From positions 1-64,000 of the forward strand of contig NZ_FRBS01000004.1 of NCBI RefSeq assembly GCF_900142675.1: DNA of 64,000 bases, given 5' to 3'. This DNA is from Shouchella rhizosphaerae. GTDB lineage: Bacteria > Bacillota > Bacilli > Bacillales > Bacillaceae_D. This document shows, piece by piece, positions 1,349-58,711 of the stretch. The position numbers and the translations under genes were made by a program. The notes below the pieces were generated by a model that had not been told where the DNA came from, did no database searches, and saw nothing but the letters and a program-made list of their open reading frames with translations. Positions within the stretch are counted from its first letter, which is position 1, and each line of letters starts with the position of its first letter.

Positions 1349-1420
1349 CAGACTAGAGGCAAACACCAAGCATCTGCTCATTCTATTCAGATTGCACTCT
1401 TCGCCTGACAAGCGTTTTTG
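1349..1420 (-). repeat. dispersed 3'-UTR repeat, shortened copy
   Basis: Minus-strand sequence begins with AAAACGCTTGTCAGGCGAAG, continues through GAATAGAATGAGCA and ends in TCTAGTCTG. The same blocks in the same order occur in the copy at 5820-5944; the middle ~45 bp are missing here. It starts 7 bp after the stop codon at 1428 and ends exactly at the terminator hairpin. See findings. Confidence 0.65.
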
Positions 1421-5794: not shown

Positions 5795-5819
5795 AAAAAC
5801 CGCCTTTTAGGCGGTTTTT
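5793..5819. terminator. bidirectional terminator of ygaE and ygaD
   Basis: Perfect hairpin AAACCGCC-tttta-GGCGGTTT with T tracts on both strands, between convergent ygaE and ygaD. The dispersed repeat at 5820 begins directly at its ygaD side. Confidence 0.85.
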
Positions 5820-5944
5820 CAGACTGTAGAAAAACGCTCGCATACTTCGTCGTTTGCCTCGGTCATATGCTCATGAACCCACGTTCTATTCGCATCTTCC
5901 CTCGCCTGCACTCCTCGTCTGACAAGCGTTTTCTATCAGCCTGA
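5820..5944 (-). repeat. dispersed 3'-UTR palindromic repeat, near-complete copy
   Basis: On the minus strand it opens TCAGGCTGATAGAAAACGCT and closes AGCGTTTTTCTACAGTCTG, so the ends are inverted repeats. By eye it is about 80% identical over its length to the copy at 35740-35865. It begins 4 bp after the ygaD stop codon and ends exactly at the terminator hairpin 5793-5819. Confidence 0.8.
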
Positions 5945-5948
5945 TCCT

Positions 5949-7697
5949 TTACGCTTCCAATTCTTGGACGCTGTATAGTTTGTAATAGGAACCTTGCTTT
6001 TCCATTAATTCTTTATGAGTGCCTTGTTCGACTACTTTTCCGTCGTCTATGACCACAATCGTATCGGCATTCGTAATGGTCGACAAACGATGTGCAACGA
6101 TAAACGTTGTCCGGTCTCGGGCCAGCTTTTCTAGTGCTTCTTGGATAAAATGTTCGCTTTCCAAATCGAGTGCTGACGTCGCTTCGTCAAAAACGAGAAC
6201 AGGTGGGTTTTTTAAAAATACGCGGGCAATGGCAATGCGCTGCTTTTGCCCTCCAGATAGTTTGACTCCCCGTTCGCCAACTTCAGTATCATAGCCATTT
6301 TCCAGCTTGCAAATAAATTCATGGGCGTTGGCTGCTTTTGCTGCCTGAATGACTTCTTCATCTGTTGCATCAGGCTTTCCAATTTTGATGTTCGATTTTA
6401 CGCTGTCGCTAAACAGGATATTATCTTGCAGTACCATGCCAATATTGTCGCGCAGACTTCTCACGACGAGGTCACGAATGTCTTTGCCGTCAATCAGAAT
6501 CCGGCCTTTTGTAACATCGTAAAACCTCGGTATCAGGCTGACGAGCGTGCTTTTCCCTCCACCGCTCATGCCAACAAGGGCAACCGTCTGCCCAGCTGGA
6601 ATGTTTAAATGGATATCTTGTAGTGCCGGGGCCGCTTCATTGTCGTAGGAAAAGGTCACATGTTCAAATGTCACAGCTCCTTTGACATCAGTCAACACAT
6701 CTGCTCCTTCTTTGTCTGTAATATCGTATTTCTCATCAATAAACTCAAAAACGCGGTCCATCGAAGCAATGGACTGTGTTAACGTTGTCGATGAATTGAC
6801 AAGCCGCCGTAACGGGCCGTATAGCCGTTCCATATAAAGGACAAAAGCACTCATGGCCCCGAGCTCTAAGCTGCCATTTAGCACAAACAGCGCCGATACA
6901 AACAGAACAAGAAGCGGGGCAATGTCCGTCACAGTATTGACGACGGCAAACGTTTTTGCGTTCCAAGCCGTATGATCAAGTGCTTTCGCTAAAAAGCGTT
7001 GGTTGCGAACAGCAAATTGCTTTTGTTCATAGTCTTCATTGGCAAAACTGCGGATGACATTCATCCCTTGGACGCGCTCATGCAAATGGCCTTGTACATC
7101 CGCAAGCGCTTGTGAACGAGTCCGCGTCAGCTTCCGCAAACGTTGGTAAAAATATTTAATCGAAAACCCGTAAAACGGAAACATCGAAATAGCAACAAGC
7201 GTCAACCATACGTTTAATTGGAGCATAATTGCAATCGCGATTAAAATCGTCGCCAAATCGAGCCATATGTTCATAAGGCCAGTGATCACAAAGTTTTTCG
7301 TTTGCTCGACGTCGTGGATGACCCGGGAAATGACTTCCCCCACTTTGCGGTTTGAGTAAAAGCGCAAACTCAGCTTTTGAATATGCGTGAACAAGTGGTC
7401 ACGAATATCGTATAGTACTTTGTTGCCGATCCATTGGGCAAAATACTGCCTGTAGTATTCAATTGGCGGGCGCAAAACGATAAACAAAAACGCCATGCCG
7501 CCAATAATCCAATAAAGTTGTGAAGATTGTTCAGCAATAGACAACTCTTCATTGAGAAGAACATCGTCAATAATGTACATCATCGCAAGTGGAAATAACA
7601 GCGGGATGCCAAATTTCAGCAACCCAATTAAAATCGTTCCAATAATTTCTTTGCGGTATGGCTTTACAAACACCAAATACCTTTTGATTGTCTTCAA
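5949..7697 (-). CDS. ygaD: ABC transporter, fused permease and ATPase (exporter type)
   Basis: 582-residue half-transporter of the MsbA/LmrA-like exporter class. Six membrane segments fill about residues 15-320. The ATPase domain has Walker [10 protein letters not shown] (about 375), signature LSGGQKQR (about 479) and Walker B VLVFDEAT (about 499), all intact. It should work as a homodimer at the membrane; the substrate is unknown. It starts with TTG, supported by AAGAAGGGG five bases upstream. Orthologous in position to B. subtilis ygaD, downstream of ygaC with a terminator hairpin between them. Confidence 0.9.
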
Positions 7698-33528: not shown

Positions 33529-33556
33529 TTGGTGGAAATGAAGAGCGAAAACCACA

Positions 33557-33646
33557 CTCAGACTAAAAGAAACGCTTTAGACGAGGAGTGCAGTCGCAAG
33601 AATAGAACAGAGGTTTATGAGCCTAGGCAAACGCCGACGTATGCGA
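33557..33646 (+). repeat. dispersed 3'-UTR repeat, copy lacking the outer right end
   Basis: Starts CTCAGACTAAAAGAAACGCT, continues with GACGAGGAGTGCAG and GAATAGAAC and ends GACGTATGCG, the same blocks as the copy at 5820 (minus strand), but the last ~20 bp of the right inverted repeat are missing. It lies between the yfkAB stop and its terminator, touching the hairpin. Confidence 0.75.
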
Positions 33647-33690
33647 AAAGAACCCATGCCCTTGTTATGAAAGAGGCATGGGTTCTTTTT
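33647..33690. terminator. terminator of yfkAB (and yfkD)
   Basis: AAGAACCCATGCC (33648-33660) pairs with GGCATGGGTTCTT (33675-33687) then TTT; A tract on the other side, between convergent genes and overlapping the yfkD stop. Confidence 0.9.
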
Positions 33691-35531: not shown

Positions 35532-35702
35532 ATGCGTAAACGTCATTTAATCCGTTTTGAGGACTTAATGGCCCAAAATAGAGATGAACTTTTAAACGAT
35601 CCTGAGGCTTTATCCAAAATTGATGATAAATTGGATGAACGTGCCCAAAAGAAAAACCGTTCACTCAAAAAAGCCAAACCAACTAGAACGAGCCGTTTTT
35701 AA
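35532..35702 (+). CDS. FbpB-like small basic protein
   Basis: 56 residues, basic and helical: MRKRHLIRFEDLMAQNRDEL followed by LLNDPEALSKIDDKLDER matches the pattern of Fur-regulated basic protein B (FbpB/FbpC-like), which in B. subtilis helps the FsrA small RNA in the iron-sparing response. GGGTGA lies six bases before ATG. The stop codon lies inside a terminator hairpin, and a repeat element with a second copy of that hairpin follows. Family call moderate; alternative is an unrelated short basic protein. Confidence 0.65.
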   Translation: MRKRHLIRFEDLMAQNRDELLNDPEALSKIDDKLDERAQKKNRSLKKAKPTRTSRF

Positions 35703-35711
35703 GGCTCGTTT
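35687..35711 (+). terminator. terminator hairpin, copy 1, overlapping the FbpB-like stop codon
   Basis: AACGAGCC-gttttta-GGCTCGTT, with only TTT after it. An identical 25-bp sequence recurs at 35866-35890. Confidence 0.7.
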
Positions 35712-35715
35712 GAGG

Positions 35716-35734
35716 TTGTCGACAGAGTCGACAA
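35716..35734. repeat. short palindrome between terminator copy 1 and the repeat
   Basis: TTGTCGAC-aga-GTCGACAA, perfect 8-bp arms. Confidence 0.6.
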
Positions 35735-35739
35735 AATCC

Positions 35740-35865
35740 CCAGGCTGATAGAAAACGCTTGTCAGCCGAGGCGCGAAACCGAGTGAAGATGCGAATAGAA
35801 CATGGGTTCATGAGCATATGAATGAGGTGAGCAACGAAGGATGCGAGCGTTTTCTATCAGCCTGG
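35740..35865 (+). repeat. dispersed 3'-UTR repeat, most intact copy with 20-bp perfect terminal inverted repeats
   Basis: Ends are CCAGGCTGATAGAAAACGCT (35740-35759) and its exact reverse complement (35846-35865). The 126-bp unit has no coding capacity. It is followed immediately by terminator copy 2. The 25-bp direct repeats of the terminator at 35687 and 35866 bracket it, a possible trace of insertion. Confidence 0.88.
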
Positions 35866-35894
35866 AACGAGCCGTTTTTAAGGCTCGTTTTTTT
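35866..35894 (+). terminator. terminator hairpin, copy 2
   Basis: Same hairpin as at 35687-35711, here followed by a longer tract of T's (TTTTTTTA), so probably the more efficient terminator. Confidence 0.8.
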
Positions 35895-48964: not shown

Positions 48965-48996
48965 AAAAAGGGCATAGGCAGCAACCTATGTCCTTT
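48965..48996. terminator. terminator between the 48709 gene and abrB
   Basis: AAAGGGCATAGG (48967-48978) and CCTATGTCCTTT (48985-48996); T tract best on the minus strand (CCCTTTTTC). The dispersed repeat at 48997 begins at its abrB side. Confidence 0.8.
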
Positions 48997-49124
48997 CAGT
49001 CTGTAAACAATACTCGAATAGTTTGTCGTTTGCATGTATTCCAACGGAGAATACCATTGCCTATGAGCCTATGCGCTAATCGCTCTCACTCGTTTCACCG
49101 TCTGACAAACGGCTTCTACCTGTC
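48997..49124 (-). repeat. dispersed 3'-UTR repeat, diverged copy after abrB
   Basis: Minus strand starts GACAGGTAGAAGCCGTTTGT, runs through CAGACG and GCAAACGACAAA and ends GTTTACAGACTG. Ends are inverted repeats like those of the other copies. It fills the space from 12 bp after the abrB stop codon to the terminator hairpin. Confidence 0.65.
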
Positions 49125-51588: not shown

Positions 51589-51612
51589 GAAGCGCCCTTT
51601 CCCAGGCGCTTC
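51589..51612. terminator. hairpin at the edge of the composite repeat
   Basis: GAAGCGCC-ctttccca-GGCGCTTC, perfect but without a T tract. Possibly an old terminator. Confidence 0.5.
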
Positions 51613-51780
51613 AACCTGTATACAAACGCTCGCATATTTGTCGTTTGTCTCACTCACTCATCTACTCATGAACCCTCGTTCTATTGGCACCTTTCCTCGG
51701 CTATCAGCCTGAGGACACTCATGTTTTATTGGCAACTTACTCCAATTACACTACGGCTGAACAAGCGCTTTCTAAGTTCA
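51613..51780 (-). repeat. dispersed repeat, composite: one copy plus a truncated second copy
   Basis: On the minus strand the 3' part (51713-51613) reads TCAGGCTGATAG, then CGAGG, CCAATAGAAC, GGGTTCATGAG, ACAAACGACAAATATGCGAG and ends CGTTTGTATACAGGTTG, matching the family. The 5' part (51780-51714) starts TTAGAAAGCGCTTGTTCAGCC and is the left half of another copy. No gene ends just upstream. The rest of the ~620-bp gap 51350-51974 holds no gene. Confidence 0.7.
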
Positions 51781-56827: not shown

Positions 56828-58711
56828 CTATTTCGACTGTAATGCTTCTATTTTTTCGGCCAGTTCTGCCCAGCGATTAAGAGCGGCCTCCAACTCACTG
56901 TCCAGCATTTCTTTTTCTTTTAGCAAATCAGCAATTCGCCCATAATCACTGCCTGCGTCGGCAATCGCCTGCTCAAGGATCTGCTGTTTTTCTTCAAGCG
57001 CTGCTATATGGCCATCAATTTGCTCCCATTCGCGTTGCTCATTATATGATAACTTTTTTTGTTCTTTTTTCGGCTGTGGCGTTGGCACTTGTTCGTGCTG
57101 TGGCTGTTTATCGGTGATGTCGTTTCTGCCCGTCATATAATCACTGTAATCGCCGTCATAGCGCAACAAGCGATTGCCTTCGAAAATCAGCATTCGGTCA
57201 ACAACACGGTCAAGGAAATAGCGATCATGGCTAACCACAACAACCGCGCCAGGGAATGTGTCTAAATAGTCTTCTAGTACAGCAAGTGTTTCGACATCTA
57301 GGTCATTTGTTGGTTCGTCGAGGAACAACACATTCGGTTCGCCCATTAGCACGCGCAGCAAATACAAACGTCTTTTTTCACCGCCTGACAAACGGCGAAT
57401 ATAGGTCCATTGTTGCGACCGTGGAAACAGAAAACGTTCAAGCATTTGCTCGGCATAAATAGCATCCCCTTTTGTGGTGTAAACCACTTCAGCAACTTCC
57501 TTAATGTATTCAACCACGCGCAAATCGCCGTCAAGCTCTGCATCTTCTTGGCGGTAATAGCCGATCCGCACTGTTTCGCCCACATCAACCGTCCCGCTGT
57601 CGGGAGCAGTCCTCCCTGCCATCATATTCAGCAACGTTGTTTTTCCGCTGCCATTTTCGCCAATAATGCCAAGCCGTTCATTTTTCCCCATTAAGAAAGA
57701 CAAGTCGGAAAAAAGCATCTTTCCTTGGTACGATTTGCTAACTTGGCGAAGCTCAATCACTTGTTTGCCAAGACGTTTATGGCCAATTGGCATATCCAGC
57801 TGCCTATTGGCATTTGGGCCAGTTTGGGCATTCAGTGCTTCTACCCGTTGAATCCGTGCCTTTTGCTTCGTCGTTCTCGCCTTCGCTCCTCGCTTTAGCC
57901 AGGCAAGCTCCCGCCTAAGCAAATTTTTGCGCTTATCCTCCGCTTGCTCTGCTTGCGCTTTGCGTTCCGCTTTTTCTTCTAAATAGGTCTCAAAGTTGCC
58001 AACATACCGGTATAGCGCTCCCTCTGATAACTCAAAAATGGTATTGGCGACGCGGTTTAAAAAGTAGCGGTCGTGAGTGATCACGATCAATGCACCAGGA
58101 TATTGTTTTAAATGTTCTTCCAACCATTCAACCGTTGCATGGTCAAGATGGTTCGTCGGCTCGTCGAGTAATAGCAAATCAGCTGGCTGAATGAGTGCCC
58201 GCGCCAAGGCAACACGTTTTTTCTGGCCACCTGACAACGTGCCAAGCTTCGCCGAAAGGGCCGAAACCCCAAGTTTGCTAAGAATGGTTTTCGCCTGTGT
58301 AGCCGCTTCCCAAGCGCCAACGCGGTCCATTTCCTCTTGCCATTTCAGAAGCTCAGTTTGGCTCTTGTTATCGTGTGGGTGTGCCTCTAAGTCTTGAAGC
58401 GCCTTTTCATAGCTCGCTACCGTTCGCATCAACGTCGATTCGCTCTTGTAAATATAGCGAATGGCTGTTTCATTTTCTGGCATGTCGAGCTGTTGCGGCA
58501 AGTATTCTAGCGTAAACTCATTGGCATGAAACAAAGCGCCCCCATCAAACCCTTCGACTCCGGCGAGCCCTTTTAACAACGTCGATTTGCCTGTGCCATT
58601 AACGCCAAGCAAGCCAATTCTGTCGCCTTTTTCTAAACTAAAGTGAATCGATTCAAAACAAATCTTGTCGCCAAAAGACTTTGTTAGCCCTTCTGCTCGA
58701 AGTAAACTCAT
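56828..58711 (-). CDS. yfmR: ABC-F ATPase YfmR/Uup type
   Basis: 627 residues, no membrane segments. Two ATPase domains: Walker A GVNGTGKST (near 38) and GENGSGKTT (near 353), signatures LSGGQKKR and LSGGEKRR, each with DEPTNHLD or DEPTNDLD. A linker (about 240-300) and a C-terminal coiled coil (about 550-627). ABC-F proteins act on stalled ribosomes; YfmR is linked in B. subtilis to relief of proline-type stalling together with EF-P. Downstream of nos by 12 bp, so co-transcribed. Confidence 0.9.
   Translation of the reverse strand: MSLLRAEGLTKSFGDKICFESIHFSLEKGDRIGLLGVNGTGKSTLLKGLAGVEGFDGGALFHANEFTLEYLPQQLDMPENETAIRYIYKSESTLMRTVASYEKALQDLEAHPHDNKSQTELLKWQEEMDRVGAWEAATQAKTILSKLGVSALSAKLGTLSGGQKKRVALARALIQPADLLLLDEPTNHLDHATVEWLEEHLKQYPGALIVITHDRYFLNRVANTIFELSEGALYRYVGNFETYLEEKAERKAQAEQAEDKRKNLLRRELAWLKRGAKARTTKQKARIQRVEALNAQTGPNANRQLDMPIGHKRLGKQVIELRQVSKSYQGKMLFSDLSFLMGKNERLGIIGENGSGKTTLLNMMAGRTAPDSGTVDVGETVRIGYYRQEDAELDGDLRVVEYIKEVAEVVYTTKGDAIYAEQMLERFLFPRSQQWTYIRRLSGGEKRRLYLLRVLMGEPNVLFLDEPTNDLDVETLAVLEDYLDTFPGAVVVVSHDRYFLDRVVDRMLIFEGNRLLRYDGDYSDYMTGRNDITDKQPQHEQVPTPQPKKEQKKLSYNEQREWEQIDGHIAALEEKQQILEQAIADAGSDYGRIADLLKEKEMLDSELEAALNRWAELAEKIEALQSK

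Follow-up and report, generated by a model that had tools for sequence, protein, structure and literature searches.

The window, as we call the whole stretch of 64,000 nucleotides analysed here, belongs to a genome of 4.24 Mb in 13 contigs (termed G000), and a query protein taken from it is 97% identical to its nearest named relatives, Shouchella tritolerans and S. clausii. Downstream of a small open reading frame (ORF) at 35532-35702, FbpB-like according to an earlier note on this DNA and read by eye, lies a repeat whose 35740-35865 portion is free of overlapping ORFs of at least 80 aa. These limits, given in the earlier note, took in the core and the right end but missed the left end (AGGTTGTCGAC...), and the true left boundary is found 28 nt further out. 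In its complete form, the element consists of an IS1182-like left end, a small GTTGTCGAC hairpin, a palindromic core and a right end finishing in ...CAGCCTG. On either side stands one copy of a perfect 26-nt direct repeat, each copy being itself a hairpin, and a T-tract is present only at the outer hairpin copy. The left hairpin copy includes the stop codon of the small upstream ORF, and the original terminator would therefore have overlapped the end of the gene. When the flanks of 30 copies from the same genome were read, the best-preserved ones were seen to have 28-29 conserved nt (AGGTTGTCGACAAAGTCGATAACCGCCC) ahead of the 125-nt palindrome. Length variants also occur: longer copies carry an extra internal piece (AGCGGTTTTCTTGCGCATGA... 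in L041; also L043, L095, L116 and L120), and shorter ones of 61-90 nt, such as L115, L125 and L145, keep both terminal stretches.

Six copies of a repeat family had been proposed in the window, and this is borne out by a covariance model (named R1) built from 61 complete copies, which is significant for four of them when the whole window is scanned (Table 1). A further match, at 57864, has an E-value of 3.8 and is put down to chance. The decayed copy at 48997 has a collinear counterpart in the Shouchella contigs L001/L003 that scores 55 bits (E 1e-10), the collinearity being deduced from how far each lies from the query gene and not by alignment. The copy at 1349-1420 scores poorly (10.7 bits, E 0.0045 over the 201 bases searched) and shares a 31-nt match (87%) with 5907-5937 of the copy at 5820; it is likely a relic of the repeat. 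At the alignment level, four copies are related by significant matches and the fifth through its counterpart in L001/L003; the sixth, at 1349, is a probable relic only. A hairpin, said to touch the right end of all six, does so at 1349, 5820, 35740, 48997 and 51613 but not at 33557, where the true right end is gone.

Table 1. Positions in the window of the repeat copies and of their adjoining hairpins
Feature	Position	Strand	Remarks
Probable relic	1349..1420	-	Internal deletion; hairpin 1324-1348 adjoins right end
Hairpin of copy at 5820	5795..5819	-	Adjoins right end
R1 match	5818-5974		E 8e-33, whole-window scan
Copy at 5820	5820..5944	-	Without left end; R1 E 8e-33
R1 match	33530-33671		E 2e-6, whole-window scan
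Copy at 33557	33557..33646	+	Decayed, right end missing; hairpin after the break at about 33646-33690
Left hairpin copy (target-site duplication)	35686..35711	+	26 nt; exact match to 35865-35890; without T-tract
Complete element	35712..35864	+	About 155 nt; R1 E 2.4e-32
R1 match (copy at 35740)	35713-35866		E 2.4e-32, whole-window scan
Right hairpin copy	35865..35890	+	T-tract after it, to 35894; presumed working terminator after insertion
Copy at 48997	48997..49124	-	Decayed; hairpin 48967-48996; R1 14.9 bits locally
R1 match	51610-51767		E 7e-10, whole-window scan
Copy at 51613	51613..51767	-	Diverged; hairpin 51589-51612 adjoins right end; R1 E 7e-10

A mobile family at terminator-like hairpins

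Scanning the window, its own genome and related genomes with the covariance model, as the earlier note had suggested, confirmed that the family is multi-copy. The genome of the window holds at least 59 R1 matches at E ≤ 0.01 among the best 150 of 1601 candidates scored, and its blastn matches (at least 48 aligned pieces at E ≤ 1) are far above chance. A 155-nt query, equal to one of its copies, has at least 44 matches there and at least 42 in a second Shouchella genome (G001), where the best match is 100% identical over 153 nt. The family is present in six of the 13 Shouchella genomes, its own included: this query found at least 29 to 44 matches each in G000, G001, G008, G010 and G011, and G006 holds two diverged matches (74% and 70% identical). 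The seven other genomes of the genus gave no match to the 155-nt query at E ≤ 1e-5, and a search of a plasmid collection with the same query gave none either. The left flanks of the copies at 5820 and 35740 recur beside copies of G001 (L149, L150), so both insertions are older than the split from that genome. Sites that lack the repeat were predicted to appear as both flanks joined by one hairpin. For 15 of the 20 sites tested, a contiguous empty site was found in at least one of three other genomes searched, a count that also took in lower-identity or gapped rows for L112 and L025, each having one clear empty site; L084, L085 and L245 lie outside the analysis set. Base-by-base alignment placed a single hairpin at the empty site in 13 of these 15. 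Where the site is filled, there is one hairpin on each side, and the duplication spans the hairpin from foot to foot. The family is real and mobile.

The surroundings of the repeat were compared in 106 distinct copies (30 from G000, 60 from G001 and 16 from four other genomes), which were left of 117 chains after removing those with the same 45-nt right flank and duplicates, chains of fewer than 40 columns being excluded; for G001, 80 regions were taken for 100 matches to the right-end pattern, five of which are ends of an insertion sequence. A hairpin (score of at least 18) begins within the first eight bases past the right end in 93 of the 106, versus 42 of 1607 random positions. At the foot of this hairpin, at least four T within 8 nt are present in 78 of 93 copies, compared with 570 of 3210 random 8-mers. 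The targets are terminator-like hairpins that are unrelated in sequence and varied in length. Of the copies that retain a left end and have sufficient flank (62 in all), 51 display a direct repeat (score of at least 12), versus 4 of 600 mismatched flank pairs. Duplication length (range 18-31 nt) correlates with hairpin length (r = 0.82, n = 50; maximum of 10,000 permutations, 0.57): both are equal in 30 of 50 cases and within 1 nt of each other in 38, versus 19.9 expected by permutation. Not every copy conforms, as 13 of 106 lack a hairpin of this score at the right end, 11 of 62 a recognisable duplication and 43 of 106 the left end, which was probably lost later by deletion.

With its short length (155 nt), its many copies, the lack of a transposase gene, target duplications and empty sites, the repeat has the attributes of a miniature inverted-repeat transposable element (MITE). 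We consider it very probable that it is a non-autonomous MITE of about 155 nt with IS1182-like ends, which inserts at terminator-like hairpins and duplicates them.

Orientation and the RNA-like core

The earlier note had described an invariable order of stop codon, repeat and terminator with one constant orientation, and had offered as explanations either an element that targets terminators or an RNA module of the 3' UTR. The order arises in either orientation; it is a by-product of insertion, because each side receives a copy of the hairpin whichever way the element lies, and it calls for no regulatory function. A constant orientation is not found throughout. The main set comprises 96 copies (those of the 106 with a hairpin score of at least 16, mostly from G000 and G001). 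The gene on the left is the sole one to read into the repeat in 39 of them and the gene on the right, lying on the opposite strand, in 13; both do so in 38 and neither in 6, which amounts to a 3:1 bias (39 vs 13, p = 0.0004). In a second set of 42 loci, from G008 and from other genera, the corresponding numbers are 10, 18, 9 and 5 (10 vs 18, p = 0.18); ORF calling was crude in both sets and followed a simpler rule in the second. These 42 comprise 30 of 40 other-genus loci and 12 of 14 loci of G008 that hold the element; the ten other-genus loci with neighbouring tandem copies or masked letters were left out of the orientation count. The asymmetry between A- and T-tracts was tried as a marker of orientation and abandoned (mean of 4.5 T after and 4.12 A before, n = 50, p = 0.15).

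Conservation of the core extends well beyond Shouchella. Matches to R1 at E ≤ 1e-4 occur, often many per genome, in at least 24 of 199 genomes of the order and in at least 20 of 97 genera, own included, at most the best 15 candidates being scored per genome. From 13 other genomes, 40 loci yielded 49 R1 matches; a hairpin (score of at least 18) stands at the right end in 23 of these loci, and a direct repeat of at least 11 nt across the element is found in 18 of them, from 7 of the 13 genomes (control: 0 of 2000 mismatched pairs). Several of these other-genus elements start with a clear IS1182-type end (AGAGTGTAGACAAAGT). At three loci from two other genera (L296, L308 and L310), core copies are arrayed in tandem, head to tail, at intervals of about 120-130 nt.

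The core also displays features that would be expected from a structured RNA. Within the Shouchella set, 7 of 31 pairs covary (shuffled mean of 3.0, 0 of 500 as high), and among 48 distinct sequences from 13 other genomes 18 of 31 pairs are changed on both sides (11.5 when shuffled, 0 of 500 as high), although both counts lean towards structure, since the Shouchella alignment had itself served to predict the structure and the other-genus alignment was fitted to R1. The covariation score in the other genera reaches 0.259, versus at most 0.052 for slid structures. The sense strand is predicted to fold more stably than the antisense strand in 60 of 60 sequences of one set and 39 of 42 of another, and, when sequences are grouped by genome (1 to 45 per group), in 13 of 14 groups; for the copy of the window, the values are -69.8 and -57.1 kcal/mol, respectively. 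A strand difference of at least 10 kcal/mol is seen in 20% of random 155-mers, so it is the consistent sign alone that counts, and in copies that share descent this predicted asymmetry is suggestive only. Folding both strands replaced a comparison of G.U with A.C counts, which was biased by the RNA folding used to pick the pairs. No Rfam family reaches its gathering cut-off anywhere in the window, and low-threshold searches of the stretch around the copy at 35740 and of seven other-genus loci yielded no more than sub-threshold matches to rnk_pseudo, Phe_leader and STnc100, which are attributed to chance.

Taken together, covarying pairs across genera, the more stable sense strand and the sense bias of the main set lend partial support to the proposal that the repeat is retained for its RNA fold, which would stabilise, terminate or regulate the host transcript. 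As an explanation of the repeats, we nevertheless regard it as unlikely. Three quarters of the tested copies (15/20) are missing at the same site in a relative, the orientation bias is not recovered in G008 and the other genera, some copies are arranged in tandem, the covariation counts are tilted as stated above, and the position in the 3' UTR is accounted for by hairpin duplication.

IS1182-group elements and the target duplication

The search with the right-end pattern revealed in G001 a 1.54-kb insertion sequence in five copies, whose transposase passes the IS1182 model NF033551 (484.7 bits for a cut-off of 270) as well as DDE_Tnp_1_6 and DUF772. Of its terminal inverted repeats, CAGACCGTAGACAAAACG is similar to the right end of the repeat and CAGCCTGTCGACAAAG to the left end; compared by eye, the right end is close and the left end weaker (AGGTTGTCGACAAAG against CAGCCTGTCGACAAAG). 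The repeat thereby appears to share its ends with an autonomous IS1182-group element, closely on the right and less well on the left. Four of the five copies lie between duplicated hairpins. At E ≤ 1e-20, this insertion sequence was detected in one of the 13 genomes of the genus and had no match in G000, where the IS1182-type genes are contig-end fragments of another element; the partner that moved the G000 copies is one that we therefore infer. That other element, IS-B, has two complete copies in G001 and was rejected as a partner because its ends (AGGGGTTGTCCCAAAAG) are unlike those of the repeat and inspection by eye showed no direct repeat at either complete copy. Several G000 contigs end inside IS-B (L206, L214, L222, L225, L227 and L229), and its copies probably broke the assembly. 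Near position 1387 of L230, a complete G001 copy of IS-B lies beside an apparent decayed copy of the repeat. Long duplications of the IS1202 type had been considered and were dropped once the IS1182 partner was found.

Relatives of the G001 transposase are present in 48 of 397 genomes of the order (E ≤ 1e-100). We examined 43 IS1182-group copies, of which 29 came from the order-wide search (the best-scoring of about 95 matches, one per genome), 9 from another search and 5 from G001. In 32 of the 43 (22 genomes of 17 genera), the inverted repeats are immediately flanked by a direct repeat of 19-42 nt that is exact and palindromic, whereas among 3000 trials with mismatched flanks 157 had some repeat and 3 a palindromic one. 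A T-tract after the duplication or an A-tract before it accompanies 31 of the 32. In the 11 copies without a palindromic duplication, four are clipped by a contig end and have overlapping flanks (L274, L279, L280 and L281), and the other seven have no repeat of at least 14 nt (L168, L261, L268, L270, L275, L282 and L283). In G038, IS1182 copies of differing length, apparently with differing internal deletions, all lie between duplicated hairpins (L249 and L251-L254); these could possibly be MITEs in the making. Both autonomous and internally deleted IS1182-group elements of other genera duplicate hairpins as the repeat does. The behaviour is not a trait of the whole IS1182 family, as IS1272 deletes its hairpin and IS-B shows no duplication. 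For ISPse1, a published table appears to list a 4-nt duplication (PMC3281130).

In classical DDE transposons, the length of the target duplication is set by the enzyme. An ordinary duplication of fixed length, about 25 nt, by a transposase that merely prefers terminators would agree with the commonest values in the MITE set, 25 nt (13/50) and 26 nt (11/50), but the lengths vary from 18 to 31 nt in the MITE and from 19 to 42 nt in the insertion sequences and track the hairpin, with exact equality in 30 of 50, which makes this explanation very improbable. Still less credible is a duplication of the hairpin without transposition, through slipped replication or a switch of template at the terminator, since, even if adjacent palindromes are generally known to be prone to slippage, the duplications adjoin the exact ends of the element and are common to transposase-bearing IS1182 elements.

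The idea of an element that targets terminators consequently gains strong support from the duplicated hairpins, the empty sites and the related autonomous insertion sequences. Judged on sequence evidence, the repeat is a terminator-targeting MITE of the IS1182 group. We propose that an IS1182-type transposase would act on it in trans and would join its ends at the feet of a cruciform, which, at a four-way junction, would be close together whatever the length of the arms. Gap filling or repair would then duplicate the whole hairpin. Since the outer copy alone has the T-tract, the host gene would still end at a complete terminator, and the element would be left in the 3' UTR. The sequences document the states before and after insertion, and the intermediate cruciform is our reading of them; a single-stranded hairpin, or recognition of the terminator complex, could play the same part. 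We would give even chances to the wider proposal that the IS1182-group transposase reads DNA shape instead of sequence, joining ends at cruciform feet so that the hairpin sets the length of the duplication, and that its rider is an RNA-bearing MITE superfamily of 3' UTRs, previously undescribed, whose strand-specific structured core is matched in at least 20 of 97 sampled genera of the order.

Hairpin duplication would make terminators a harmless landing place, as a complete hairpin with its T-tract is left behind, and it would explain a class of 3'-UTR repeats that can be mistaken for regulatory RNAs. Bacterial MITEs and repeats of the ERIC, RUP and BOX types are likewise short, non-coding, multi-copy, palindromic and intergenic. 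The present family differs from them by its terminator-like hairpin target, a duplication length that depends on this target and a core that covaries across genera. Group IIC introns also insert next to terminator hairpins; they are not known to duplicate the hairpin, and the repeat differs in having IS-like ends and a length of 155 nt, with no Rfam family at cut-off on the window. Long and variable duplications are reportedly recorded for IS1182 elements in ISfinder and could already cover part of our finding. In the open-licence literature, we found no description of the repeat or of a hairpin-length duplication. Among annotated elements, ISEfa7, an IS1182-like element of an Enterococcus plasmid annotation, has a transposase with about 59% identity to the G001 enzyme.

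The closest parallels are IS1272 and TnSha1, whose IS1182-family transposases act on hairpins that are unrelated in sequence and several of which are terminators (PMC4923244, PMC5678879). These papers describe a partial or complete deletion of the hairpin: the targets in PMC4923244, confirmed terminators among them, undergo partial deletion with no duplication, and the IS1272 data of PMC5678879 correspond to hairpin replacement. Hairpin-replacing transposition of the IS1272 type was rejected for the repeat, which shares the hairpin target but not the deletion, the whole hairpin being duplicated here. Duplication is drawn in PMC5678879 as a hypothetical 'pathway b', with no example in the part of its text seen. 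The natural insertions assembled here, 51 of the MITE and 32 of IS1182-group elements, in which the duplication length follows the secondary structure of the target, provide a large natural sample of this duplicating outcome for full elements and MITE alike, and match that hypothetical branch as it is presented there.
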